A stretch of DNA of 64,000 nucleotides, taken from assembly GCA_022760475.1 (NCBI GenBank), contig JALEFZ010000056.1, positions 1 to 64,000 on the forward strand, written 5' to 3'. The notes under the pieces are model-generated. The model was not told the origin of the DNA, made no database searches, and saw only the letters and a program-made list of their open reading frames with translations. Numbering within the stretch: the first letter of the stretch is position 1; the number at the start of each line of letters is the position of its first letter. This DNA comes from Bacteroidia bacterium. Its GTDB lineage: Bacteria > Bacteroidota > Bacteroidia > J057. Shown here one piece after another: positions 1 through 14,160 of this stretch. A program made the translations under genes and the position numbers.

Positions 1-123
1 ACTTTGTTTGCATAACTCGTAGTTTTGGTCGACCACAAGTTATCTGACTGATTCCTATTTTTTCAATGAACTAAATTTTCCGTCCCAAACATGGTCTTAG
101 TTCAGGTGGATAGCATTAAAAAG

Positions 124-160
124 AAAAATCTCCAGCAATCAGTGACTGCTAAAGATTTTT
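124..160 (-). terminator. Hairpin terminator closing the oxidase operon
   Basis: Inverted repeat with arms AAAAATCT..AGCA and TGCT..AGATTTTT around a 9-nt loop. Read on the minus strand it ends in a T-rich run and lies 27 bp past the stop of the multicopper oxidase gene, so it is a natural end for the transcript running from about 9.9 kb down to 0.19 kb. The A/T-rich outer arms would also allow function in the other direction. Positions 1-123 show no convincing gene. Confidence 0.6.
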
Positions 161-186
161 CTAATTCACCAATAAGGACAAGCCCC

Positions 187-2331
187 TTATTCTAGAATGA
201 TCTTTTCAGTTACACGTTTTTTATTGGAGATAAACTCCACAAGAACCAGTCCCCTTGGAAGCTCCGCTACGGAGATATTGGCAATTCCCTTGAATGCCGA
301 TACTTTCTCTTCTTTCAAAAGACGTCCCATGATGTCTGAAATCCTCACTTTACCCTCAGTCAAAACACTGCTCTTGAGGTGGATGATGTTTTCGGCAGGG
401 TTGGGGAAGATGGCAAACTCAGGCTGGGGTAGCAGGGGCTCATTACTGATATTGAGGCCATTGGCCTGGCATACCGAATCGCTAACTACCGTAAACTGGT
501 GCATCATGCTGAAGTCCTCATGTGTCAGGATATGGCAATGATACATATAACCATTCGTGGGTTTTATTTCATCCTCTCCAAACATATCGAACCTCGCCTG
601 GAAGGTAAACTGGGAATTCTTCCGCACAATCATCACATCCTTATACCCCAACATATGAGCAGGTAAGTTTGGATAATCGTAGGTAACAGGAGTTCCACTT
701 GACCCATCGATATATTGGACTACCTGGAATTGAACCTTATGAATGTGGAAAGGATGTGCCACAGGTGTTTGGTTAACCACAGTCCATTGCTCACAGGTAT
801 TTACACATACCGTATCATCCAATTTCATCATGTCCATGGGTGAATTGTCAATTGTCCATTGCCCACTTGTGAAGGTAGTATCACAAGTAATTGTTCCCAT
901 CATGGTATCACAAGTGATCACTGGCCTAAGGCCTATGGAATCCAACAGGTTCTTGGTTCTCATTCTTGGATTGACACAAGAATCCAGTTTATATTCAGGA
1001 AATAGTGAGGCATCAGGAAGTTTTGTCACTGGATTTGGAATAGAACCAAAGTGGTCAACATCAAATCTCATGAAGGCCAAACCTGTAGTAGGGTTGCCAA
1101 AACCACCCTTATTTTTACTATCTCCGCCTAGACCCACAATGTCATTAGGGCCTCCGCCATTTTTATAGTATTGAGCCTGGGTTGACAAATTACTCATGAA
1201 CAACTCCGTAGCACCATCAAGGGTGGAGTCCCTTAAATCCAGTAGAAACTCCCCTCTTTCGCCCGGATTGATCAAAAATTGCTTCATGGGATGAATATTA
1301 CCCATATACCCCCCATCAGTAGCTATTTGATAAAAAGTTTGGCGAGCATCATGGTCAGAGGTGTCAATATTGGTTGAGAATCCAATATTGTAGGACTTTC
1401 TTGGGTCTCCATTCAATAGTCTGATACGAATTATAGATCCATTGATGGGAAACCTTCCCATAACGACCCCATTGATTGCACGGAATTCCCCATCTCCTGG
1501 CTTTTCAACTATTTTTAATCCGGTAGCTGTTAAAACAGTCTTACTGGAATCGACAAAAAGGGTATCGTACACAAAGCCCTTCTCCTGAATCACAAGAGGG
1601 AAGTCGTTGATGGCATATTCATTTGGCAAGGCAGCAACTAGATCCTTGGTAGCTTGATCCATAGTATCTTCTACATAGATAATCCCCGCAGCCCCCATGG
1701 CCACTTGCTCAGTGGTAAACTCCATGACATGTGAGTGATACCAGAGGGTTTGGGCAGGGTCTACCATTGGGAAAACAGGTTTCCATGGATTTCTGGGGTC
1801 ATTGGCATCATTTGGAATAGGTTGGTGAGGCCCTCCGTCCCCTTGTGCATGTACATTTAGGCCATGCCAATGACTGGTAGTCATTTGGCCTTGACCAGGC
1901 TCTCCATTCATAGAAGTAGAAGTGGGCAGATTGTTTCTTACTTCCATTTCCACGGTATCTCCACGAAACCATCTGATCATCGCTCCCATGAAGGTAACAT
2001 CCAAGGCAGTAGATGGCCAACGTTGAGGACTATTGATCGCCCAGGTTCTCACGGGGTTGCTGATATCATAATAATAATTAGGATTGGGATTGTTGGAAGA
2101 TGTATCAAGCAACACTCCCCCGATGGTATATCCAGTTGGATCAAATCGATGCGTTCTTGGCTCAAATACCAGTTTATACCTCACGGTGTCATTGACCCGT
2201 TCTCCCTCAGCGACATAGGGGACGAAAATTCTGTTGATGAAATCGCTTGACCGGAATTGCGCATGCAGGCCAGAAGGTATAGCCATTAAGAAGGCTATTC
2301 CTACTAAAAATTGAGTAATTAAATTTCTCAT
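187..2331 (-). CDS. Secreted multicopper oxidase (laccase/CotA/bilirubin-oxidase-like) with T9SS sorting domain
   Basis: A 714-residue copper oxidase, expected to oxidise phenols, diphenols or metal ions with reduction of O2 to water. Residues 1-25 form a signal peptide ending LHAQ. All copper motifs are present: HWHG (154-157), HSH (199-201), HPFHIH (526-531) and HCHILTHEDFSMM (598-610), which supplies the type-1 Cys599 and the axial Met region. The last ~75 residues, starting IFPNP (641-645), form a type A T9SS sorting domain, so the enzyme should be exported and attached to or released from the cell surface. It is the last gene of the oxidase operon, 55 bp after the LodB-like gene and followed by a hairpin. 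Many cysteines (C452, C474, C483, C509, C513) lie in the linker before the last cupredoxin domain. The natural substrate cannot be read from sequence. Confidence 0.93.
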   Translation of the reverse strand: MRNLITQFLVGIAFLMAIPSGLHAQFRSSDFINRIFVPYVAEGERVNDTVRYKLVFEPRTHRFDPTGYTIGGVLLDTSSNNPNPNYYYDISNPVRTWAINSPQRWPSTALDVTFMGAMIRWFRGDTVEMEVRNNLPTSTSMNGEPGQGQMTTSHWHGLNVHAQGDGGPHQPIPNDANDPRNPWKPVFPMVDPAQTLWYHSHVMEFTTEQVAMGAAGIIYVEDTMDQATKDLVAALPNEYAINDFPLVIQEKGFVYDTLFVDSSKTVLTATGLKIVEKPGDGEFRAINGVVMGRFPINGSIIRIRLLNGDPRKSYNIGFSTNIDTSDHDARQTFYQIATDGGYMGNIHPMKQFLINPGERGEFLLDLRDSTLDGATELFMSNLSTQAQYYKNGGGPNDIVGLGGDSKNKGGFGNPTTGLAFMRFDVDHFGSIPNPVTKLPDASLFPEYKLDSCVNPRMRTKNLLDSIGLRPVITCDTMMGTITCDTTFTSGQWTIDNSPMDMMKLDDTVCVNTCEQWTVVNQTPVAHPFHIHKVQFQVVQYIDGSSGTPVTYDYPNLPAHMLGYKDVMIVRKNSQFTFQARFDMFGEDEIKPTNGYMYHCHILTHEDFSMMHQFTVVSDSVCQANGLNISNEPLLPQPEFAIFPNPAENIIHLKSSVLTEGKVRISDIMGRLLKEEKVSAFKGIANISVAELPRGLVLVEFISNKKRVTEKIILE

Positions 2332-2386
2332 AATTATGAATTAAGGTTTAAGGAAAAGTTGATTCAGTTTGTTTGTTTGCTGTGTA

Positions 2387-3511
2387 TCAAATTGCATGCT
2401 TAAGCCATCCGTTTTGTCTCCGGCTCCAGAATTCAACTGCTTTCCATCGGCTTTCATGTCCATAGTGAGTAGCCTTGCTTTGAAGGTAAGTGTCATATTC
2501 TTGGGAGAGGATTTTTTGATACCTGGATAGGGAATCCCGGCCTTTAAAATGATCAACAGCAACATAAGCCCCTATGATTCCGAACCTGAGTGCACGAAGG
2601 CTACCACTTGAAGAAAGTGGATCGACGGCTGCGGCGGTATCTCCCACAGCTACCCAGTTTGGGCCTCCAACTTGATCAAGGATATAAGATGATGCGGAAT
2701 AGAGGCTCAGCTCTGACATTTTCTCAAAGTTTTGCACCCTTTGGCAGGTGTGAGGAGCATCCTGGAGTTTTTCCAGATACATTTCCTTCCTGGAAAGCCC
2801 GTCCTGCCGGATGAGGTCAGAATCGCTCATCCAGCCCAATAAAACCGAATTGTCATTTGTGTAAGCAGAATACCACCATCCCCTATCCCTGGCTTCCACC
2901 AGGGTATAGCCGTGATGAGACCTCTGCCTGTCAGTAAGCCAAAAATTGGCATAGACTCCTATCAGTCGATCCGCCTTTCTTTTTCGCACACCAAGCTGCC
3001 TGGTAAATGCTGCATTTCTTCCGGAGGCATCAATTACATACTTTGAAGAAAAGGTATGTTCTTTCTCACCAATCTTCACTTCCAGCTTCCACAAGTTGGA
3101 AGTCCAATTTTGTCTTTTGAAACTGGCATTGAGGAAAAGTTCAGCTCCACGAGAAACACATTCTTTCCTTAGAAAATCATCATATTGGTTTCGGGGAATT
3201 TGCCAGCCATGCCCATGAGTCTGATAGATAAATTCATTGTAATGAGGGCTTTCGCTTCCCCAAATGGCTGAAGTCCCGTATGCTGCCTGAAATTGCTCTT
3301 TTAAAAATGATCCCCATATGCCCAGTTCTTTCAGGAAATGGGCTGTCATGGGACTTAGGCTCTCCAATCGGCGTCGGGCTAACGCTGCTGATTCGAGCAG
3401 ACAAACGCTTAGATGAGGAGCATTCTTTCGGATAGCCAGGGCCGCAGCACATCCTGCTGGCCCTGCTCCAATAATTACAATGTCAAAATATAAGTTAGTA
3501 TTGGGGGTCAT
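2387..3511 (-). CDS. lodB: LodB-like FAD-dependent oxidoreductase (quinone-cofactor maturation flavoprotein)
   Basis: A 374-residue flavoprotein of the tryptophan-halogenase/geranylgeranyl-reductase superfamily. The N-terminal Rossmann motif GAGPAG is at 15-20, GWWYSA at 211-216 and the second FAD motif GDTAAAVDPLSSSG at 290-303. In Marinomonas, LodB is required to convert a Cys-Trp pair of LodA into the cysteine tryptophylquinone (CTQ) cofactor and has about the same length (about 370 residues). Here the gene is 19 bp after a 153-residue ORF that itself follows the LodA-like gene, so a CTQ-maturation role is the best inference. No signal peptide is visible, as expected for modification of the oxidase in the cytoplasm before export. 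A halogenase role is unlikely: the characteristic WxWxIP motif is not seen. Confidence 0.82.
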   Translation of the reverse strand: MTPNTNLYFDIVIIGAGPAGCAAALAIRKNAPHLSVCLLESAALARRRLESLSPMTAHFLKELGIWGSFLKEQFQAAYGTSAIWGSESPHYNEFIYQTHGHGWQIPRNQYDDFLRKECVSRGAELFLNASFKRQNWTSNLWKLEVKIGEKEHTFSSKYVIDASGRNAAFTRQLGVRKRKADRLIGVYANFWLTDRQRSHHGYTLVEARDRGWWYSAYTNDNSVLLGWMSDSDLIRQDGLSRKEMYLEKLQDAPHTCQRVQNFEKMSELSLYSASSYILDQVGGPNWVAVGDTAAAVDPLSSSGSLRALRFGIIGAYVAVDHFKGRDSLSRYQKILSQEYDTYLQSKATHYGHESRWKAVEFWSRRQNGWLKHAI

Positions 3512-3530
3512 ACTTTATACTTATTGTCAC

Positions 3531-3992
3531 CTAGTTTTTAACCGCATACCAGGATGCAGTTACGCCAGCGGGAGAAATCCCTCCTGATCCATTTGGATGT
3601 GGGATTACTCTGACGATGGACCCTACCATCGCCATTTTCTGCTGCACTCCATTCTGCCAAGGCAATACCAGGTAGCCGACATAGTCATAAATCCATTCGC
3701 TGCCACTCACAATTCCTTTGCCCTGGAACCTTACTGTGAATGGATTCCCAAAATTGGTCGAACCCTTCAGGTTAAGTGCCCAGTCTGCAGCTGCGTGGGG
3801 ATCAGCTTTGCTTAGGTCATTTTGACCATAAATTAGCCCCTTGAACTCAGTTTGCATGGAAGGATCGATGCGGATATAGCCTGCTCCGAAAAGGAGATTG
3901 TTAACATCGGCTGTTTTTGTGAGGTCAGTTTCATTCAACCAACTTCTGTATGTCCAAATGCCTTGAAAGGTTTCTTCGTGTAGATTTGCCAT
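3531..3992 (-). CDS. Unrecognised 153-residue beta-rich protein encoded between lodA- and lodB-like genes
   Basis: I do not recognise a named family. The protein begins MANLHEETFQGIWTYRSW and has alternating hydrophobic/polar stretches with many Gly, Trp, Tyr and Phe, which suggests a small beta-barrel. The FQGIW start resembles the GxW motif of lipocalin-like folds, but this is only a resemblance. There is no signal peptide, membrane segment or cysteine. The gene has a fair ribosome site (aaagga) before the ATG, lies 63 bp after the LodA-like gene and 19 bp before the LodB-like gene, so it is almost certainly cotranscribed with them. Possible roles are a LodA/LodB chaperone, a carrier of the oxidase through export, or a substrate/product-binding protein. 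All are inference from position. Confidence 0.75.
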   Translation of the reverse strand: MANLHEETFQGIWTYRSWLNETDLTKTADVNNLLFGAGYIRIDPSMQTEFKGLIYGQNDLSKADPHAAADWALNLKGSTNFGNPFTVRFQGKGIVSGSEWIYDYVGYLVLPWQNGVQQKMAMVGSIVRVIPHPNGSGGISPAGVTASWYAVKN

Positions 3993-4055
3993 AGTTCCTT
4001 TGTTTTATCGATGTGAATATCAGACCTTGTTTATATTTAGTTGATTTGTGAATAA

Positions 4056-6209
4056 TTAATCTTCATTTCTTTCTACCTCAGTGAATTCCAGGCCTCCAGC
4101 TCCATTCTTTAACAGGAACCCTAGCCTCTTCCATTCACTTACCATTTTGAAGTCCCCTTCGTAAGTCTGGGGGATGCCCTTGGCCCAATCCTCTTGTTTG
4201 AATGAATCCCCATCCTTGCGATATACCTGCATAGGTCTGTGCGAAGGCCACCAAAGGGTCTCCACAACTTTCCGGTCTATCGTTCCGGGATCATTGCCAC
4301 TGTCATAGACTTTGTTCCATTCTCTGTAGGTTACATCAATCATCTGGGTGGCACACTCATTGAAATCTGCCTGCCAAGGCAGGGCATTTCGTTTGGTAAC
4401 ATCGCCAGGTTCAAGCCCTTTTTCAATGTTGTCGTCAAGGCTTAATGCCGGTGGCATGAAGGCATTTTTACCAGACAGCCTACCTGAGCCTGAGTTGGGA
4501 ACAAAATCCGTATTCTGCTTTATTCGATAGGGCTTTTCGTAAATGGCTCTGTTACGAACAATCCAACCTACCTCACCACCAGGGCAGAAAGATCCCCCCA
4601 ATACATTGGCCAGAACTCCTCTATCAATCTCAAGTCCTTTGTCTACGCGGGTTGTTTTGGCATCTTCAGGCAGGTCTTTTTGCCCAAACTCCTCCATTTC
4701 ATTGATAAACTTCCCATCTGCCCACTGCTTAAGCAGGAAGAGTTGGGTATCAGTCAGTCTAAAAAACTTGGATGGAAGGGTATTGCTTAATGGATTATCT
4801 CCACACAACAATGGCATGAGTCTTTTGCCATAAATCAGGTACTTGGGATCAGCTGTCCAGTTTAGGAAATCATTTTCTTCCCCTCCATGACGCAAAGCGT
4901 AGTAAACAAACTGACGAATTTCTCGGTAGGGATCTTCAAGTATGTAAATGCTTTCATTTCCCTTATCATCCTTGACCTTTTTGAACCTCAACTTGGACTC
5001 TTCCTGGCCGAGTAATTCGGTGATTTTTGCAGGATCTTCCAGTAAGACCCATTTTGGGGGAAGCATCACCTTTCTCTTATCGAAGTCCCCTCTGGGACCT
5101 ATTTCATGGGCATCGTTGGATATGGCTAGAAAATCTGTAACCCATTGCATTTTGTAAGGCCTGACGAGTATGGGCCAGATTTCCTTGAAAAACATGGGAT
5201 AATAATTGGAATTCCATTGTTTCTCAGTAGCTCTCCACAAATCCAGGGCTTTGGGATCGCTGATATCTACCTCCTCACGAGATTCAAATTTCCCTGTGCC
5301 ATAGAGATAGGTGTCATAGGCAAACTCCCTCACATAAAGGTCATAAAGGCAATCGTCCAGGGTTACCAGATTAGAAAGTTGGGGAGCATAATTGGGATTC
5401 CCCACTATTACCCAAGCCGGATCATGCACCTGAATTACACGCATCTCGGCATCCACTTCATCCCAAAATTTCAAAATGGCCATTACAGGTCCATCAGCTA
5501 TGTCATCAAACCATCCATCATTGTTGGCAAAATTTGAGATCATAGGCTGGCCAAAGTCGTTCTTAAAGGAGCCAGAATTGCCATAGCCTCCAAGCACAAT
5601 GAGGCGGTTGTTGTCATCGGTTTTAAGTTCACCAAGGGTTTCAATGGAGTAAGGTTCAAGTTTTGGGGGAAAGGACTGGGCATATCCTGAATTTTCTCCA
5701 CGGGCAAATTGAGCAGTTCGAGGTTCCTCGCTACACTTCACCGTTTGAGGTCCGGGATCAATGATCAATTTCTGTCTGGCCTGGCCTTGAATATCAGCGT
5801 TTCGCCTCGGATGGTCTGGCGCATAGCCATGCTCACCTTCCAGTTCTTTAAACTCGAACCATGAAGATTTTTTATTGGCCAAATACACTGTCCATTCTAT
5901 ATCCACAAGGGTGCCCTTACTTGTAATGCCTTCAACCTGATCCCCGATTTTCAATTCCCTCCCTTGAGGGTTTTTGTCATCATAGACGTAGATTCTGAAC
6001 CTTGCTGCTTGTCGTTTTACCCTTCCATCATTGTCCTTGAATGTAGAGGTTGTAACTTCTTTGCCCTCATTGTCAAGCGTAGCATTCCCCTGCTTGTCGC
6101 AGGCAATGGGTAGGCCTTCAGATGATTCGGGACTTAGATAGAATTCATCAGGGCTGTCCCCTACCCTGGCTATACCAATTGCTGGATGTATTTTATATGT
6201 TAGTTTCAT
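4056..6209 (-). CDS. lodA: LodA-like CTQ-dependent amine/amino-acid oxidase
   Basis: A 717-residue protein of the L-lysine epsilon-oxidase (LodA/GoxA) family, whose members oxidise a primary amine of an amino acid with release of NH3 and H2O2 using a protein-derived quinone. The N-terminus (KIHPAIGIARVGDSPDEFYL) is typical of the family, followed by the family blocks GGYGNSGSF (207-215), NFANNDGWFDD (226-236) and PWQADFNEC (611-619). The likely cofactor pair is Cys542 (GGSFCPGGE) and Trp612, 70 residues apart, comparable to Cys516/Trp581 of Marinomonas LodA. From memory, LodA has an Asp four residues before that Cys; here the same position appears to be Gly538, which needs alignment. No classical signal peptide is present, as is usual for the family. 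Substrate (Lys, Gly or another amine) cannot be assigned. It lies between the tyrosinase and the 153-residue gene. Confidence 0.88.
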   Translation of the reverse strand: MKLTYKIHPAIGIARVGDSPDEFYLSPESSEGLPIACDKQGNATLDNEGKEVTTSTFKDNDGRVKRQAARFRIYVYDDKNPQGRELKIGDQVEGITSKGTLVDIEWTVYLANKKSSWFEFKELEGEHGYAPDHPRRNADIQGQARQKLIIDPGPQTVKCSEEPRTAQFARGENSGYAQSFPPKLEPYSIETLGELKTDDNNRLIVLGGYGNSGSFKNDFGQPMISNFANNDGWFDDIADGPVMAILKFWDEVDAEMRVIQVHDPAWVIVGNPNYAPQLSNLVTLDDCLYDLYVREFAYDTYLYGTGKFESREEVDISDPKALDLWRATEKQWNSNYYPMFFKEIWPILVRPYKMQWVTDFLAISNDAHEIGPRGDFDKRKVMLPPKWVLLEDPAKITELLGQEESKLRFKKVKDDKGNESIYILEDPYREIRQFVYYALRHGGEENDFLNWTADPKYLIYGKRLMPLLCGDNPLSNTLPSKFFRLTDTQLFLLKQWADGKFINEMEEFGQKDLPEDAKTTRVDKGLEIDRGVLANVLGGSFCPGGEVGWIVRNRAIYEKPYRIKQNTDFVPNSGSGRLSGKNAFMPPALSLDDNIEKGLEPGDVTKRNALPWQADFNECATQMIDVTYREWNKVYDSGNDPGTIDRKVVETLWWPSHRPMQVYRKDGDSFKQEDWAKGIPQTYEGDFKMVSEWKRLGFLLKNGAGGLEFTEVERNED

Positions 6210-6236
6210 TTTAAATGCTTTGTAGTTGTTAAAAAA

Positions 6237-6282
6237 CTCGACAATAAGCCTCTTCTAGCCTCGACAATAAGCCTCTTCTAGC
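6237..6282. repeat. Perfect 23-bp tandem duplication spanning the tyrosinase stop codon
   Basis: The 23-bp unit CTCGACAATAAGCCTCTTCTAGC occurs twice in exact tandem (6237-6259 and 6260-6282), quoted here only as a unit starting CTCGACAATA and ending TTCTAGC. On the minus strand the first-read copy contains the last Ser codon and TAG stop of the tyrosinase gene, and the second copy lies in the 68-bp spacer before the LodA-like gene. It looks like a recent slippage duplication; it adds a second copy of the stop region without changing the protein. Confidence 0.9.
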
Positions 6283-8425
6283 TTTCAACCACCTCAATGG
6301 CCTTCGGGAAGAATCCATTTTCGCAATCACTCCCATCAGGTCCCACTACCACAAGGTTCACCTGGAACTCATCTACTCCTTCTTGAGAAAGCCTTTGAAC
6401 TGCTTCTGTGATATCCAGCCTGTAATTTCTGCGCGCATTGTGATTGGGAGGTCTTTTATCATTATCACGCTTATTCTCGGGCGGGGGGGCACAGTGCCCA
6501 GGTCCTCCTACACATCTCCCATGTCCCCAGAAGAAAATGCAACCTGCGTAAAATTTATTCTCTTCCGTAGCAGGGGTAAACATATCCGCATCAGGGCTAT
6601 TGAGAAATACCCTTACGACAAAGGAATTTTCGGGTTGGACCACCTCATGCAACCTCAGCTCTACCTTCCCCTTTAGCCCTTGAGTCTGATAGAGTCTCGC
6701 ATCAAAATTGATGTAGTCTGATTTGAAGACAGAAACTCCTTTGGGATGCTCTATTTGGAAGACATGACCTGCATGGGCATATTCATATCCCAGCTGTTCA
6801 ATATTTAGTGCGTCTCTTACCGAATATCCCAGTCCAGCAAGGGCTCCATTGACATTGTAGGGCAATTGGTTGGGATTATTTCTTTGCCAAATGCTGAAAA
6901 GCCTATCTATGTACACATGGTGAGGCCAGAAGATTGGGTCAAAACCTGCTGTCAGGTTGGCCAGCATATCCCCATTAAAAGGCTCCAATTCGTTCCCTTC
7001 CTGGAAATTTTTGTTGTAACCACCTACCCAAATATGAATGGTGTTGTGAGGGTCCATATCCAACACGCCAAATGATTGGTTGTACTCTGGTCCCCCCGCA
7101 AAATCCCTCCAATTATCCACTTGAAGGATCTTTACCACATCTTCAGCAGTAGGGTAATGATGGTGAAAAGGATTTTGAAGTCCATTTTTCAATATCGGAA
7201 TAGGATCACCATTTTTATCCCTGACAAACTTCCCATTATTCATCTGATAAAACATCCCTGGATAGCGAAGGGGATACCAAAGTGGATTGATTAGCTCAAG
7301 CTGTTCTATGATTTTCGGGCTAAACTTATAGTACTCATCCCCCTCAATATCAGCCATATAGAATAACTCAACTCCTGAATTGAATTTTATCCCCTTGATT
7401 TTTTCGAGCTTCTCCAAAACAGGCTTCCACTCATCTCCCAACTTGCTTAGGTTTTCAATGGCTACGTCATTGATCCAGCATCGGTAAATTTCAGGAATGA
7501 TGGAGCTGATAGGCTTTTTAGGGAATTCCTTGTTTTCTTTTGGAATAGCGCCATTGTTGTAGTCTGGATCTGTCCAATCCCAGTAGGGCAAAGTAACCGT
7601 CTCATCAAAATCTTGTAGCGTCTGCTCAAACTCATACAAAAACATCCTGTGCCAGGTTAGAAACTGCTCCCAACCATGCTCGCATACATTGCCATGGAGT
7701 TTTCCCCATGAATAGAGACTTCTTCGATCTCGAGGCCACTTATTCAGTTTTTTGAGTTCAAGGGTAGCACATCTGAGGCGGTAAATTTCCTCTTCTGTGA
7801 GGCTTTTGAGATTTTTACGTTGCTTTAGCCTTGGCTTATAGGCGTCGGTGAGTTGCAGGTTTATTTGGTATTTTCCCTTGTGGCCGGCGCCATGTCGATC
7901 AGGAATGTTGTCATCAGGTGAACAACCATAATCTATCCAATCCGAAATAAATTGGATATCCTTTTCAGAAACTTCTTTTCCCCCCCATGGCAAACGAGGA
8001 AAATGCCCTTCTCTATTTTCATCCCCTTGAAAAGAATTGCCATCAAAAGGAAATTCTCCCCTAAGCCCTTTAATCAATCCGGAAGCAGCACCGCGTCCAG
8101 GATAGGGAGGCTTGGAAAGCCCGTCAATTCTCTCCCAACCTTTCTCCAGCATGTCAATTTCATCCTCCTTTTCTTCATCCTCATGGCTTGAGCAACAAGA
8201 ACTCTCCGGCGGTTTGGAAAGGAGCATGTCCCCACAATCAGATTCATCAATAGGGGCAATCATCCGAACACCGTAGATGCTGATCTCCTGAAGTTTGTCA
8301 AGAGAGAGGCTTGACCAGAAATTTTTGTATCCCTGGTAGTCTGCTGTTGTTCCTTCGGCAGCTTTATCAAGGATTTGCTTAACTTTTTCGTAACTGCTGG
8401 GCTCACTATTTTGATCCAAATTCAT
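6278..8425 (-). CDS. Large tyrosinase / polyphenol oxidase with N- and C-terminal extensions
   Basis: A 715-residue type-3 copper enzyme, expected to hydroxylate monophenols and/or oxidise o-diphenols to quinones. The CuA site is H244, H250 and H259 in HGNVCEHGWEQFLTWHR; C248-E-H250 is the Cys-x-His arrangement that forms a thioether in fungal tyrosinases and molluscan haemocyanins. The CuB site is H460, H464 (DPHNTIH) and H501/H502 (FDPIFWPHH). The C-terminal ~140 residues (FFWGHGRCVGGPGHC around 631-645) resemble the capping domain of polyphenol oxidases. The first ~200 residues are an unrecognised extension with an acidic Cys-rich patch (C77, C78) and ISDWIDYG (160-167). No signal peptide is visible. 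The ATG at 8425 is preferred, 7 bp after the preceding stop; an upstream TTG at 8455 would overlap that gene. Central gene of the oxidase operon. Confidence 0.9.
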   Translation of the reverse strand: MNLDQNSEPSSYEKVKQILDKAAEGTTADYQGYKNFWSSLSLDKLQEISIYGVRMIAPIDESDCGDMLLSKPPESSCCSSHEDEEKEDEIDMLEKGWERIDGLSKPPYPGRGAASGLIKGLRGEFPFDGNSFQGDENREGHFPRLPWGGKEVSEKDIQFISDWIDYGCSPDDNIPDRHGAGHKGKYQINLQLTDAYKPRLKQRKNLKSLTEEEIYRLRCATLELKKLNKWPRDRRSLYSWGKLHGNVCEHGWEQFLTWHRMFLYEFEQTLQDFDETVTLPYWDWTDPDYNNGAIPKENKEFPKKPISSIIPEIYRCWINDVAIENLSKLGDEWKPVLEKLEKIKGIKFNSGVELFYMADIEGDEYYKFSPKIIEQLELINPLWYPLRYPGMFYQMNNGKFVRDKNGDPIPILKNGLQNPFHHHYPTAEDVVKILQVDNWRDFAGGPEYNQSFGVLDMDPHNTIHIWVGGYNKNFQEGNELEPFNGDMLANLTAGFDPIFWPHHVYIDRLFSIWQRNNPNQLPYNVNGALAGLGYSVRDALNIEQLGYEYAHAGHVFQIEHPKGVSVFKSDYINFDARLYQTQGLKGKVELRLHEVVQPENSFVVRVFLNSPDADMFTPATEENKFYAGCIFFWGHGRCVGGPGHCAPPPENKRDNDKRPPNHNARRNYRLDITEAVQRLSQEGVDEFQVNLVVVGPDGSDCENGFFPKAIEVVES

Positions 8426-8432
8426 AGACTGT

Positions 8433-9092
8433 TTATTTAAATTGAAGTGAGACAATGATTTTTTTTGAGAGCTTATATGGAATGTGTAGCCAAATCAGAG
8501 CAAGGAACAGGAAGCCAATCCCGATATGCATCAAGGAGGCAAAGTCAAATAAGAGCTTCCCACAGAGGACACAGCATGCCCCTATTGTGATTAATAGGAT
8601 GTAGGAATAGTTTTTCTTTCTAAACGATTTCCAGACTCCCCATCCAACAAAAGCAGAAAACAAAGCCACTAGAAATGGCAGCCACCAACTTTGATACCCA
8701 AGCTTGTCCAGACCAATTCCACTGAAAATACCTGCATATGCAGCCCAACACAGAGGGCATTTTGGGAGAAAGACAAGACCAATAGCAGGAAGCATGGATA
8801 GGTCCCATTTGACCTTCATTTTTTTTGGTTCCTCTTCAAGCAAGGAGATAAGTTTTTCTTCTCCAGGGATGGATGTGGAAATGGGAGTCTGAGAATGTTC
8901 ATCTATGACCAGTAATGCTTTTACATCAGGTGAAAGTGCTGCATGGCCTTCAAAATCTTCCAGTTCAGTTTCCTCCCAGAATAATTCATGGCCGCTCTTG
9001 AGTAGTGCCAGCCTCAAAGCCTTTCGCAATTCACTGACCTCAAAGAAATCTGCTTTCCGGTAAATTTTTATTTTGCGCCTTTGCTCCTGCAT
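8433..9092 (-). CDS. MerC-like membrane protein with CPLC motif
   Basis: A 219-residue protein with a soluble N-terminal part (1-95) and about four membrane segments (roughly 100-127, 136-155, 163-180, 185-206). The first segment carries LPKCPLC (109-115) and a third-segment cluster is GACCVLCGK (171-179), the paired-cysteine layout of MerC-type metal transport proteins. Its ATG follows the TAA of the DJ-1-like gene with no gap, and the tyrosinase ATG is 7 bp downstream, so translation is probably coupled. As three of the downstream gene products are copper or redox enzymes, copper handling or thiol/disulfide exchange at the membrane is a reasonable guess, but MerC homologues are best known for Hg(II). 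No mer genes are near. Confidence 0.72.
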   Translation of the reverse strand: MQEQRRKIKIYRKADFFEVSELRKALRLALLKSGHELFWEETELEDFEGHAALSPDVKALLVIDEHSQTPISTSIPGEEKLISLLEEEPKKMKVKWDLSMLPAIGLVFLPKCPLCWAAYAGIFSGIGLDKLGYQSWWLPFLVALFSAFVGWGVWKSFRKKNYSYILLITIGACCVLCGKLLFDFASLMHIGIGFLFLALIWLHIPYKLSKKIIVSLQFK

Positions 9093-9863
9093 TTATGTAC
9101 CCATGAATTTTTGAACAGCCTGATATACTTCTCCTGCATTCGCTGTATTTGATACCTTGTACAGAATGTCCGGGCTGGCATGCGAAGGATCTCCTTCATG
9201 AAATGGTGGATTTGGGGCATATTGGATGAGCAACTGAATCTTTCGGGCTATTTCGTCTCCTGCAATTACAGCCGCGATTGCAAGGGCTTCATCAATACCG
9301 GAGCTGATTCCTCCCCCTGTTATTCGGTTGCGGTCAATTACATAGCGAGGGTATCCAGGTTCTACATAAACCTGATCAAACAAGCGAAGCGGTTCTTGAA
9401 ATGCCCAATGAGTAGTACACCTATACCCTTGAAGTAAACCCGCAGCAGCGAGTAAAATTGCACCTGTACATACTGCGCTAACAATGTGAGGTCTTTGATT
9501 TACTTCAGCTATCTGGACCTGTTTTTTAAGGAAGTTTAGATAATTGTCTTCCTCACTATTCAGGCCCTTTTCCAATACATTGACCAAAGCAGAATCCGTC
9601 GCTCCCGGAACAAAGATCATATCAAGTTCCAAGTCAGAGCAGAAATCGTATGAGACATTCCAAGTTAGCCCATCGAATGAAGATATGTCCCCCACTTGAG
9701 GCCCAATCATGTAAATGGAGATCTCTTTTCCCAACTCCTTTGCGAAGTTTTTTAAAAAGAAAAATACCTGATTAGGACCTGCAACGTCCAGAGAATCAAA
9801 TCCTTCATAAAGGGGGATCCCAATCCTTAATTCCTTAAGAACTGAAATATCATTTTCAACCAT
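9093..9863 (-). CDS. DJ-1/PfpI family protein, isonitrile-hydratase-like
   Basis: A 256-residue class I glutamine-amidotransferase-like protein. The nucleophile elbow is SAVCTGAILLAAAGLLQG with the cysteine at residue 132 of the chosen start, and a TTHW block follows; this pattern is shared by isonitrile hydratases and by the ligand-binding half of FtrA-type AraC regulators. It has no DNA-binding domain of its own, but a separate AraC-type gene lies 141 bp upstream on the same strand. The start was taken at the second ATG (9863); an upstream in-frame extension to 9911 adds 16 residues not expected for the family. First gene of the oxidase operon. Possible roles are hydration of isonitriles, detoxification of reactive carbonyls, or sensing of a pathway product. 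Confidence 0.8.
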   Translation of the reverse strand: MVENDISVLKELRIGIPLYEGFDSLDVAGPNQVFFFLKNFAKELGKEISIYMIGPQVGDISSFDGLTWNVSYDFCSDLELDMIFVPGATDSALVNVLEKGLNSEEDNYLNFLKKQVQIAEVNQRPHIVSAVCTGAILLAAAGLLQGYRCTTHWAFQEPLRLFDQVYVEPGYPRYVIDRNRITGGGISSGIDEALAIAAVIAGDEIARKIQLLIQYAPNPPFHEGDPSHASPDILYKVSNTANAGEVYQAVQKFMGT

Positions 9864-9908: not shown

Positions 9909-9974
9909 CAAATTACATAATCACAATAGGTCATATATAACAATGAGATTGCAATTACTGGTAAACAGATTGCA
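9909..9974 (-). promoter_or_regulatory. Candidate AraC-type operator and promoter of the oxidase operon
   Basis: Two perfect 8-bp direct repeats AGATTGCA (plus strand 9946-9953 and 9967-9974) are 21 bp apart, i.e. two helical turns, the geometry used by AraC-family dimers or two-HTH monomers. Reading on the minus strand they lie just upstream of a TTG (9941-9943) and a TAATTTG (9909-9915), a fair match to the Bacteroidota TTTG / TAnnTTTG promoter with 25 bp between. The DJ-1-like start is about 45 bp further on. The repeat is seen directly; regulator identity and promoter activity are inferred. Confidence 0.5.
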
Positions 9975-10004: not shown

Positions 10005-10784
10005 CTACCGCTTCAAGTATGCTGACGGGAGGTAACCAAACTCCTCTTTGAAACACCTGGTAAAATAGCTTGGGCTGCTAAACCCTAGGCTGTAGGATAC
10101 CTCACTACAACTGAGTTTGGTCTCAAAAATCAACTTTTTTGCCTCCAGGAGTCGCTGTTTCTTAATAAATTGGCCACAATTCTGGTTAATTTCCGCTTTC
10201 AGCCTGCGATGCAATTGGGAATGACTGAGTCCTATCTCTTTAGCTAAATCCTTTGGTGAGAACTTCTCATCCTTTAATCGTTGCTTAACTATTCTGGCCA
10301 ACTTATCTAGAAATTCCGTTTGCTTGCGACAGGAAGCAGCTATTGATTTATCTGACTTGGCTTCCTTCAAGGAAATGGCTCTTAAGTAATTATTTATCAA
10401 GACCTTAGACCTTGCTAACAATTCTTCTTTTGGTATTAAATGATCAAAGTAAGCATCTGCTCCACTTTCCCAAATTTTGACTTTACAAGCAGATGTTTCG
10501 CCTGTATCAATAAAAACACAGGGGATTTGCCAGTTAGCTGGATCTGATTTTAGTTTGACAATTTGTTGGGGAGAACTACCTACGGAACAATCGCTTCCCA
10601 GGACTATCAAAGTCAATCTATCTTTGCCACTTTCCTGACACATCAAAATAGCTTCATCTATTTTACAGGAGAGAATACCATATCCTAACTCCGAGAGCTC
10701 ATTTCTGATTCGCTCGTCCTCACAATTCAAAAGCAGGATTTTATGGTTTCCATTCTGGCTATGTGGTATTGCAGAAGAAAACAT
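10005..10784 (-). CDS. AraC-type regulator with degenerate receiver domain
   Basis: A 259-residue protein. Residues 14-130 resemble a response-regulator receiver fold (KILLLN strand, LTLIVLG strand, GADAYFDHLIPKEEL at 108-122). The usual phosphoacceptor Asp position is Gly63, and the switch Lys appears to be His115, so phosphorylation in the usual way is unlikely. Residues ~160-259 form an AraC double helix-turn-helix, with the typical second-helix block VSYSLGFSSPSYFTRCFKEE. The gene lies directly upstream of, and on the same strand as, the seven oxidase-operon genes, with a 141-bp spacer holding 21-bp-spaced direct repeats. It is therefore the likely local activator, probably driven by ligand binding or protein contact rather than phosphotransfer. 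Confidence 0.85.
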   Translation of the reverse strand: MFSSAIPHSQNGNHKILLLNCEDERIRNELSELGYGILSCKIDEAILMCQESGKDRLTLIVLGSDCSVGSSPQQIVKLKSDPANWQIPCVFIDTGETSACKVKIWESGADAYFDHLIPKEELLARSKVLINNYLRAISLKEAKSDKSIAASCRKQTEFLDKLARIVKQRLKDEKFSPKDLAKEIGLSHSQLHRRLKAEINQNCGQFIKKQRLLEAKKLIFETKLSCSEVSYSLGFSSPSYFTRCFKEEFGYLPSAYLKR

Positions 10785-10942: not shown

Positions 10943-12547
10943 TTACTTAGCCCCAAAATTCATCTGAATGAACCATCTTTTTTTCTGGCTTTGTAGTTTT
11001 GATGAGGCTCGAAGGATTAAAGGACTCATCAGATGCACCCCACCTGTACCTACTTCACATAGAATGGGCAGGCTATTTTCTTTTATGAACTCTATCTCGC
11101 TTAGGGATAGCATATTTTTATGAGAACCCGGTAACAGCATCAAAGCTCCATTTTTGTTGTCAGTTTCATCCAGGTGTATCCGAAGAGTAAATGAAATGGA
11201 TGTTGCCCCAATCTCCTTCAGGATTGAGTCCTGGTGCAAGGTCAAATCCCTGGTTGTCTGAGGCTCTTTTTCAAAAAAAGAGGTTTTAAGCAAGACTGCT
11301 TTCTCATCTATGCTGCGAATGATTCTTTGCAGATTTTTGTTAAACAGGTTGTTTTTCAGAGAAGGAATCCCTGCTAACAAATCTCCTTCCTTGATGGAGG
11401 GACCTTTTTCACTAAACTTTCTTTGAATAATCCGTTTGATGTGATTGACTTCACGCTTGGTAAAAACGTGGTTCAGCACCGCATAGCCTTTGTACTGCAA
11501 TTGATTGATTTTGGCAGCAAGCCCCTTGGCCTGTATCTCAGTATTATACTTATCAACCGAAGCTTCCAACCTTTCCTTGATTCTTCTTTTTAGCCTGATT
11601 GGGGTAATTACCTGGATAGATTCTCCGTAAGAAAGAATCTCTTTTTCCAGTTCAAAATTATGCTGAACCCATAACGAAATAGTTACACCAAATCCATCCC
11701 TCGAGACTTCCTTTTGTGAATGGTGAAGGGGTTTGGTCAAGACATAGGGTGCATGTTTGTGCTCAATGAATAACAAGGTCTCTTCAAGTTGGGCCTCAGG
11801 ACTTACGGATGCTCCAATGACATCCTTATAATACTCCTTTAGGTCATATTTTGTATTGGCTTTAAATGCCTCCTTGCTATGTTTTAATTCATGAATCCTG
11901 TCCAATGCAAGGTTCAATAATTCCTTTCCACCACGTTTTAGTCCCACCACAAACCAGCGATTCCTAAACTCTTTCAGCCAATATGGATAGAATAAAATTT
12001 GGCTGGGCTTTCTTGCTCGAAATGACTGGTAATGAATCTCAAGGCTTCTTTCTTTCAAAATGGCCTGATAAATAGAGTCCAGGTATTCGATTCCCTTGAG
12101 ATTATCATTCTTTTCAAAATCAATGACTGGATTGGTATGTGCTTTTTGGGCATAAATGTGGTCTTCAAGTTTTTGAACCATCCCATCCAATTCCTTAAAA
12201 TGTGAGAATCCCTTGAACTGTCTCATGAATTCAATGGTTTCATGGAGTTTATTCAAGTCATTTTCTGATAGGGGGATATTCGTAATGCTAAAATCGGGAT
12301 CTTCATAGGTGTAAAATTTCCTTTCAAGGACAATGATGGGGGCATTATATCCCAATTTGTCGCTGCGCATCATTTGAATATCTGCCTGTATAGTACGTTT
12401 ACTGACTCCCTTATCTATGCCTTCATACTCATACAGGGCCTCAGAACAAGCATCAATCAAATCCTCCAGCGTCCACTTCCTGAACCTGTTTTGCAGGCAC
12501 CTGTCGATGGTCTTATATCTAATGAGGGCATTCCGGTTGGCAGGCAT
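10943..12547 (-). CDS. WYL-domain transcriptional regulator fused to a phytanoyl-CoA-dioxygenase-like domain
   Basis: A 534-residue two-part protein. The N-terminal ~90 residues include a winged-HTH-like region (WTLEDLIDACSEAL, SKRTIQADIQMMR). Residues ~150-235 are a WYL domain (YPYWLKEFRNRWFVVG at 187-202), followed by a WCX-like part to ~335. Residues ~345-531 match PhyH-type 2-oxoglutarate/Fe(II) dioxygenases: HQD (438-440) supplies the HxD pair, NGALMLLPGSHKN (466-478) is the family block, and LMSPLILRASSK (506-517) matches the usual LxRPLLLHASSK segment. There the distal iron-binding His is replaced by Arg513 (codon CGA), so normal catalysis is doubtful and a sensing role is plausible. 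Divergent from rtcB, with an inverted repeat between them. No frameshift joins the halves; the fusion is in one uninterrupted frame. Confidence 0.85.
   Translation of the reverse strand: MPANRNALIRYKTIDRCLQNRFRKWTLEDLIDACSEALYEYEGIDKGVSKRTIQADIQMMRSDKLGYNAPIIVLERKFYTYEDPDFSITNIPLSENDLNKLHETIEFMRQFKGFSHFKELDGMVQKLEDHIYAQKAHTNPVIDFEKNDNLKGIEYLDSIYQAILKERSLEIHYQSFRARKPSQILFYPYWLKEFRNRWFVVGLKRGGKELLNLALDRIHELKHSKEAFKANTKYDLKEYYKDVIGASVSPEAQLEETLLFIEHKHAPYVLTKPLHHSQKEVSRDGFGVTISLWVQHNFELEKEILSYGESIQVITPIRLKRRIKERLEASVDKYNTEIQAKGLAAKINQLQYKGYAVLNHVFTKREVNHIKRIIQRKFSEKGPSIKEGDLLAGIPSLKNNLFNKNLQRIIRSIDEKAVLLKTSFFEKEPQTTRDLTLHQDSILKEIGATSISFTLRIHLDETDNKNGALMLLPGSHKNMLSLSEIEFIKENSLPILCEVGTGGVHLMSPLILRASSKLQSQKKRWFIQMNFGAK

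Positions 12548-12725: not shown

Positions 12726-14160
<1,435 letters not shown>

Follow-up and report, generated by a model that had tools for sequence, protein, structure and literature searches.

A Seven-gene Operon of Tyrosinase, LodA-type Oxidase, and Exported Multicopper Oxidase That May Serve Melanin-type Phenol Oxidation

The operon described here lies at the beginning of a 64-kb DNA stretch (the window) with which contig C14 opens in the 6.86-Mb genome of a Bacteroidia bacterium. Its seven putative genes are all encoded on the minus strand and run from position 9863 to position 187. They specify a tyrosinase, a quinone-containing amine oxidase of the LodA type and the maturase that belongs to it, an exported multicopper oxidase (MCO), and three helpers, one of which is a small unnamed protein referred to as p153 (Table 1). 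The original prediction, which was made from the letters of the window, had listed seven co-directional genes with intergenic gaps of 0, 7, 68, 63, 19, and 55 bp in the order of transcription, and all six gaps were exact in the list of open reading frames.

Table 1. Features of the operon and its borders, with positions in the window
Feature	Position	Strand	Evidence and remarks
Intrinsic terminator, 19-pair stem and T tail	122..162	-	-25.4 kcal/mol, z -4.8
MCO with signal peptide and type A sorting tail of the type 9 secretion system (T9SS)	187..2331	-	PF07731, PF07732 (Cu-oxidase_2/3), PF18962, TIGR04183
LodB-like flavoprotein, maturase of the cysteine tryptophylquinone (CTQ) cofactor	2387..3511	-	NF038171 4.5e-78, 262.8 bits, cut-off 400
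p153, 153 amino acids, predicted avidin-like eight-strand barrel, putative tyrosinase partner	3531..3992	-	no Pfam/NCBIfam family; orthologue in S. meliloti GR4
LodA-like CTQ amine/amino-acid oxidase, group ID	4056..6209	-	PF17990 2.9e-64 (LodA_N), PF18417 7.4e-42 (LodA_C)
Tyrosinase, 200-residue N-terminal domain (CC motif) and C-terminal domain (CxGGPGHC motif)	6278..8425	-	PF00264 1e-35
Membrane protein with CPLC motif, distantly MerC-like, candidate copper supplier	8433..9092	-	homologues in same loci and LodA-less loci
DJ-1/PfpI protein	9093..9863	-	PF01965 7e-13; ATG start, TTG at 9911 also possible
8-bp direct repeat pair TGCAATCT, candidate AraC-type operator	9946..9974	-	start-to-start 21 bp, upstream of operon
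AraC-family regulator, degenerate-looking N-terminal part	10005..10784	-	Pfam HTH_18 7.6e-22

The predicted presence of a tyrosinase was confirmed by Pfam. In an alignment of 67 tyrosinase sequences the six copper-binding His residues were invariant, as expected of a tyrosinase, and so was a Cys near the second of them. In other tyrosinases the Cys at this place forms a Cys-His link. The CC motif of the N-terminal domain and the C-terminal CxGGPGHC motif were likewise conserved in the family. A relationship of the N-terminal domain to c-type cytochromes was considered and rejected, as the three best rows of 13 chains reached Z values of at most 4.7, which is too weak, and the domain has no CxxCH motif. 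A Foldseek search with a predicted model of this domain, whose core was confident, gave no match. A free-standing protein of 127 residues, similar to the N-terminal domain found in operon tyrosinases, is encoded at 13197-13577 of locus L101, where it adjoins a LodA-less cluster of tyrosinase and heme-c protein (see below).

For the predicted LodA/LodB pair, the LodA domains were confirmed by Pfam, but the flavoprotein can only be called LodB-like, since it stays well below the curated cut-off; in the NCBIfam ranking LodB and GoxB maturases came out on top, both under their cut-offs. The CTQ residues Cys542 and Trp612 of the window LodA align with those of the solved Marinomonas LodA (2ymw). 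Against the lysine 6-oxidase model NF038172 the protein scored 359.4 bits, far under the cut-off of 600. It is therefore assigned to the LodA family, and naming it a lysine oxidase goes past the evidence. The lodB-like gene lies downstream of lodA with a small gene in between. This is the layout of group ID, defined in 2015 by lodA and lodB split by a domainless gene for 138-142 residues, plus genes for tyrosinase and MCO (PMC4417212).

Variation within the LodA family was also observed. In nine loci (L005, L063, L065, and L105-L110) the position of the CTQ Cys is occupied by Asn, Phe, His, Val, or Ser with the Trp retained, and several of these genes still adjoin a LodB-like gene, although the 2015 survey states that the Cys is present in all members of the family (PMC4417212). 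The Cys-less proteins would either carry a thioether-free cofactor or be inactive enzymes. A Lacihabitans sp. has a second LodB/LodA pair on the opposite strand directly behind its tyrosinase operon (L046, 15915-18921), and in a plasmid operon of Mesorhizobium huakuii lodA occupies two frames, probably through a frameshift (L144, 4351-6995).

Conservation of the operon was assessed in 80 loci of LodA relatives from named genomes, each taken with flanks of up to 10 kb. The genomes belong to Bacteroidota, Acidobacteriota, Pseudomonadota, Cyanobacteriota, Planctomycetota, Gemmatimonadota, and WPS-2 (Vulcanimicrobiota). The tyrosinase gene was found directly upstream of lodA on the same strand in 76 of 76 uncut loci from all seven phyla; the remaining four lie at a contig start that falls within lodA or shortly ahead of it. 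Fifty loci counted as complete because each flank measured 5.5 kb or more. They encode tyrosinase (50), LodB (49), p153 (40), the membrane protein (18), and the DJ-1 protein (15). Six LodA-like loci of other type from Bacteroidota genomes contained neither tyrosinase nor p153, and in a tree built without the sequences of the 2015 tree the 82 tyrosinase-linked LodA rows formed a clade apart from six other LodA-like rows (Shimodaira-Hasegawa-like approximate likelihood ratio test, 99). In the window's own order any LodA occurred in only 3 of 22 genomes, and both relatives' copies were of the other type. The operon is thus patchy, consistent with horizontal transfer.

These data bear on the simplest alternative, that the genes are merely co-located and share no function. 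The seven proteins are of unlike kinds, and the operon was read from gene layout; however, the tyrosinase-lodA order is fixed in seven phyla, and other types of LodA occur without tyrosinase and p153, so that this explanation is strongly disfavored and hardly credible. The predicted functional unit was accordingly borne out by conserved order in unrelated genera. The original prediction knew these oxidases from Marinomonas mostly as separate loci; the union of LodA, tyrosinase, and MCO is not new, however, as it is the rule in this LodA clade and was described in 2015 (PMC4417212).

The small protein p153 had no match among Pfam and NCBIfam families or PDB sequences. An AlphaFold2 model based on an alignment of 37 sequences (predicted local distance difference test score 88) showed an eight-strand barrel. 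In VIA-align this model matched avidin/streptavidin-like barrels with Z values of about 11 to 12.5, with other barrels tied, and Foldseek returned no match under an E-value of 1e-3. The barrel domain of quinohemoprotein amine dehydrogenase (1jmx_A, Z 12.3) ties with streptavidin, so its likeness to p153 carries no inference. Several roles for p153 were considered and set aside. A function as cross-linked structural substrate was rejected because the invariant positions include no Lys, and a dirigent-like role was dropped as a fold analogy only. A role as LodA subunit was rejected as the main explanation because both p153 without LodA and LodA without p153 occur: p153 adjoins tyrosinase where LodA is missing, and LodA lacks p153 in L105-L110.

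Instead, p153 tracks tyrosinases rather than LodA, which is new here. In searches of genomes, p153 was encountered next to other tyrosinases at LodA-less loci of four Bacteroidota, all from a single family; three of these genomes have no LodA, and in the fourth it lies megabases from the p153 locus. Furthermore, p153 was present in 107 plasmid records. Eleven plasmid places were examined, and in 10 of them a tyrosinase, in one case unannotated, adjoins p153 or is separated from it by one gene (2 with LodA, 8 without); the 11th has an MCO only. The pair without LodA was found on rhizobial and Burkholderia plasmids. In Sinorhizobium meliloti the gene order is MCO, p153 (130 residues), tyrosinase, and on plasmid pRmeGR4b of strain GR4 the gene C770_RS34430 between mcoA and mepA is the p153 orthologue (40% identity, E 4e-33). 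Among 247 genomes around one Acidobacteria locus no p153 was found, a result that is uninformative.

Divergent relatives of p153 without a tyrosinase cluster were also seen (L127, 9816-12184; L128, 3120-3839; L102, 1667-4024): one adjoins a GMC oxidoreductase (Bradyrhizobium erythrophlei), one has an apparent signal peptide (WPS-2), and one is a weak match within a 786-residue frame. On plasmid p42d of Rhizobium etli CFN42 the p153 orthologue lies less than 2 kb from an annotated avidin/streptavidin-family gene, possibly by chance (L139, 7995-10713).

The membrane protein has its CPLC (CPxC-type) motif in the first transmembrane part. It scored 12.5 bits against MerC (PF03203) and its homologues up to 19.7, none reaching the cut-off of 27.6, yet the homologues match MerC weakly but repeatedly (best value 1.2e-4 in NCBIfam). 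In LodA-less loci, either a homologue of this protein or PpoB2 (PF09948, "Copper chaperone") adjoins p153 and tyrosinase. Since PpoB2 passes copper to tyrosinase in Marinomonas (PMC2855505), replacement by PpoB2 suggests that the CPLC membrane protein probably supplies copper to the tyrosinase. The DJ-1 protein is by sequence closest among solved proteins to the isocyanide hydratase InhA (3non, 7.3e-31), and its nucleophilic Cys was kept in 15 of 15 homologues.

The copper-ligand motifs of the MCO (HxH, HxH, HxxHxH, and HCHxxxHxxxxM) were kept in 34 of 34 sequences. Its predicted secretion by T9SS gained support: the sorting tail scored 33.9 bits against a TIGR04183 cut-off of 23, as expected for T9SS cargo, and is plausible because the source genome encodes SprA (2103.8 bits). 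The MCO is not a fixed member of the operon, however. In other loci its position is occupied by a heme-c protein of 540 residues with a signal peptide and one CxxCH near the C terminus (25 of 25), which has no Pfam or NCBIfam family and in a PDB profile search gave just weak rows of cbb3 subunits around the heme motif. Among the complete loci 24 encode the MCO, 22 the heme-c protein, and none both; in the full set of 80 the two occur together once. On the LodA tree nine changes between the two states are needed, eight of them forced by well supported branches. Fisher's test gave p 1.7e-10 with kinship ignored, and on independent pairs, a small sample, there were none the same way and about five opposite (p about 0.06), so the exclusion is strong as a pattern and moderate as statistics. 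The source genome itself also encodes another tyrosinase and a single heme-c protein, at two separate places away from the operon (C13:15366-15875 and C13:269012-270403; L136, L135).

We interpret the MCO and the heme-c protein as two exported redox proteins in one role, which might be to take electrons from diphenols. The swap suggests that the system needs an exported electron acceptor and not laccase chemistry as such. Mutual replacement of this kind is also what would be expected of an electron sink if the operon served to break down or detoxify phenols and aromatic amines: tyrosinase and LodA would degrade a compound such as tyramine or dopamine, and either protein would be the electron outlet. 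The resemblance of the DJ-1 protein to a hydratase agrees with this explanation, but the clusters contain no recurring gene for ring cleavage or aldehyde dehydrogenase, and we consider it improbable.

At the upstream border, the AraC-family gene is read from the operon's strand and lies 141 bp ahead of the first ATG; it probably regulates the seven genes. The sequence AGATTGCA occurs at 9946 and 9967, 21 bp from start to start; such a repeat pair was found once in the window and in none of 100 shuffles, for a pattern picked after being seen. AraC-type repeats had been predicted upstream; an AraC-family gene and direct repeats are indeed present, but the repeats amount to just one 8-bp pair. 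Promoter scans were uninformative, with 21 found and 21 expected. The hairpin said to end the operon was recovered as the 19-pair terminator at 162-122. Because the window starts at the first base of the contig, nothing further downstream is visible. Beyond the regulator gene, a single frame at 10943-12547 on the minus strand fuses a WYL/WCX-type regulator (residues 154-329) with a PhyH dioxygenase-like domain (residues 351-522), which is unusual.

What the operon does can be approached through S. meliloti GR4. Deletion of mepA or mcoA lowers copper-induced melanin in this strain and double deletion abolishes it; the gene between them was called "hypothetical" and left untested (PMC7010606). 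Because this middle gene is the p153 orthologue, the window operon corresponds to a proven melanin trio with LodA and LodB added, and a melanin-like pigment is its most likely product. We therefore favor, with a little more than even confidence, a melanin-type phenol-oxidation unit with a built-in CTQ amine-oxidase module. Several points weigh against this interpretation. None of the group ID operons has a known pigment or activity (PMC4417212). The window tyrosinase belongs to another subfamily than MepA (26.6% identity over 335 residues), and MepA has a signal resembling that of twin-arginine translocation, unlike the window enzyme, which has no export signal. The MCO is just 22% identical to McoA and is replaced by the heme-c protein in many loci. 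Finally, LodA may be cytoplasmic or exported, as Marinomonas LodA reaches the medium (PMC2855505).

In the favored scheme the tyrosinase, with copper probably from the CPLC protein and p153 as its partner, would hydroxylate phenols and oxidize them to o-quinones. The MCO exported by T9SS would oxidize diphenols or radicals at the cell surface, giving a dark phenolic polymer in or on the envelope. LodA, activated by LodB, would oxidize an amine or amino acid to an aldehyde or keto product and H2O2, and the H2O2 could drive oxidative coupling and turn resting tyrosinase into its oxygenated form. Joining the whole set into one linear pathway goes past the evidence. A simple hydropathy test found no export signal in tyrosinase, LodA, and p153 (68, 71, and 64 sequences), whereas the MCO and the heme-c protein mostly have one; two compartments are thus likely.

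The original prediction had named three possible outcomes, of which the melanin-like pigment is the best supported and the other two rank below it. In the second, cross-linking of an extracellular matrix as in quinone tanning, o-quinones and LodA aldehydes would link surface proteins or polysaccharides, with pigment as a by-product. T9SS would bring the MCO to the surface, aldehyde and quinone chemistry are encoded together, and Marinomonas LodA has been tied to biofilm development (PMC4417212). However, the three proteins without export signal do not fit this scheme, and no conserved surface substrate protein was found in the neighborhoods, which makes cross-linking unlikely. The third outcome is antagonism, here taken together with self-protection, in which H2O2 from LodA and toxic quinones would inhibit competitors or predators and the copper oxidases would belong to the same stationary-phase response. 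In marine bacteria, LodA-family enzymes owe their antimicrobial action to H2O2 (PMC4699246), and melanin protects S. meliloti against Myxococcus, to which the strain lacking mepA and mcoA is more sensitive (PMC7010606). Because this would leave p153 and a copper chaperone beside LodA-less tyrosinase unexplained, we give it a low probability as well.

A farther-reaching interpretation can be put forward tentatively, as a possibility that we regard as doubtful. In it p153 would found a new class of tyrosinase helpers, an avidin-fold barrel that loads the enzyme or shields or steers its products, and at the same time the MCO and the mono-heme c protein would be an interchangeable electron sink. 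Tyrosinase, CTQ oxidase, and envelope redox protein would then be wired as one system rather than act as separate O2-using oxidases.

Compared with known systems, the window operon is a further member of group ID, so its gene combination has already been described. Group ID comprised 11 genomes, one of them a Bacteroidete, and its function was unknown in 2015 (PMC4417212). The window operon differs in the T9SS tail of its MCO, in its first genes, which encode the DJ-1 and CPLC membrane proteins, and in p153, which is slightly longer (153 versus 138-142 residues) than the group ID small protein. Its MCO gene is the last, whereas most related loci in our sample have the MCO upstream of the tyrosinase. 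What makes the operon interesting is the tie between p153 and melanin and the exchange of MCO for heme-c protein, rather than its set of genes: group ID operons have been without a function since 2015, and the relationship of p153 to a melanin-cluster gene gives a direct hypothesis.

The GR4 cluster and the window both have MCO, p153, and tyrosinase together, but the former has no LodA/LodB. In Marinomonas mediterranea, PpoS jointly regulates tyrosinase, MCO, and LodA, and PpoB1/PpoB2, PpoA, and LodA/LodB are encoded at separate loci, unlike in the window (PMC2855505). Both encode a membrane protein for copper transfer to tyrosinase, PpoB2 in Marinomonas and, putatively, the CPLC protein in the window, and p153 is not reported from Marinomonas. 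The Streptomyces pair melC1/melC2 is similar to the window in that the tyrosinase adjoins a small helper protein. MelC1 is not known to be an avidin-like barrel. Should p153 prove to be a tyrosinase helper, it would add a third kind to MelC1 and PpoB2 and could be useful for making active tyrosinases.

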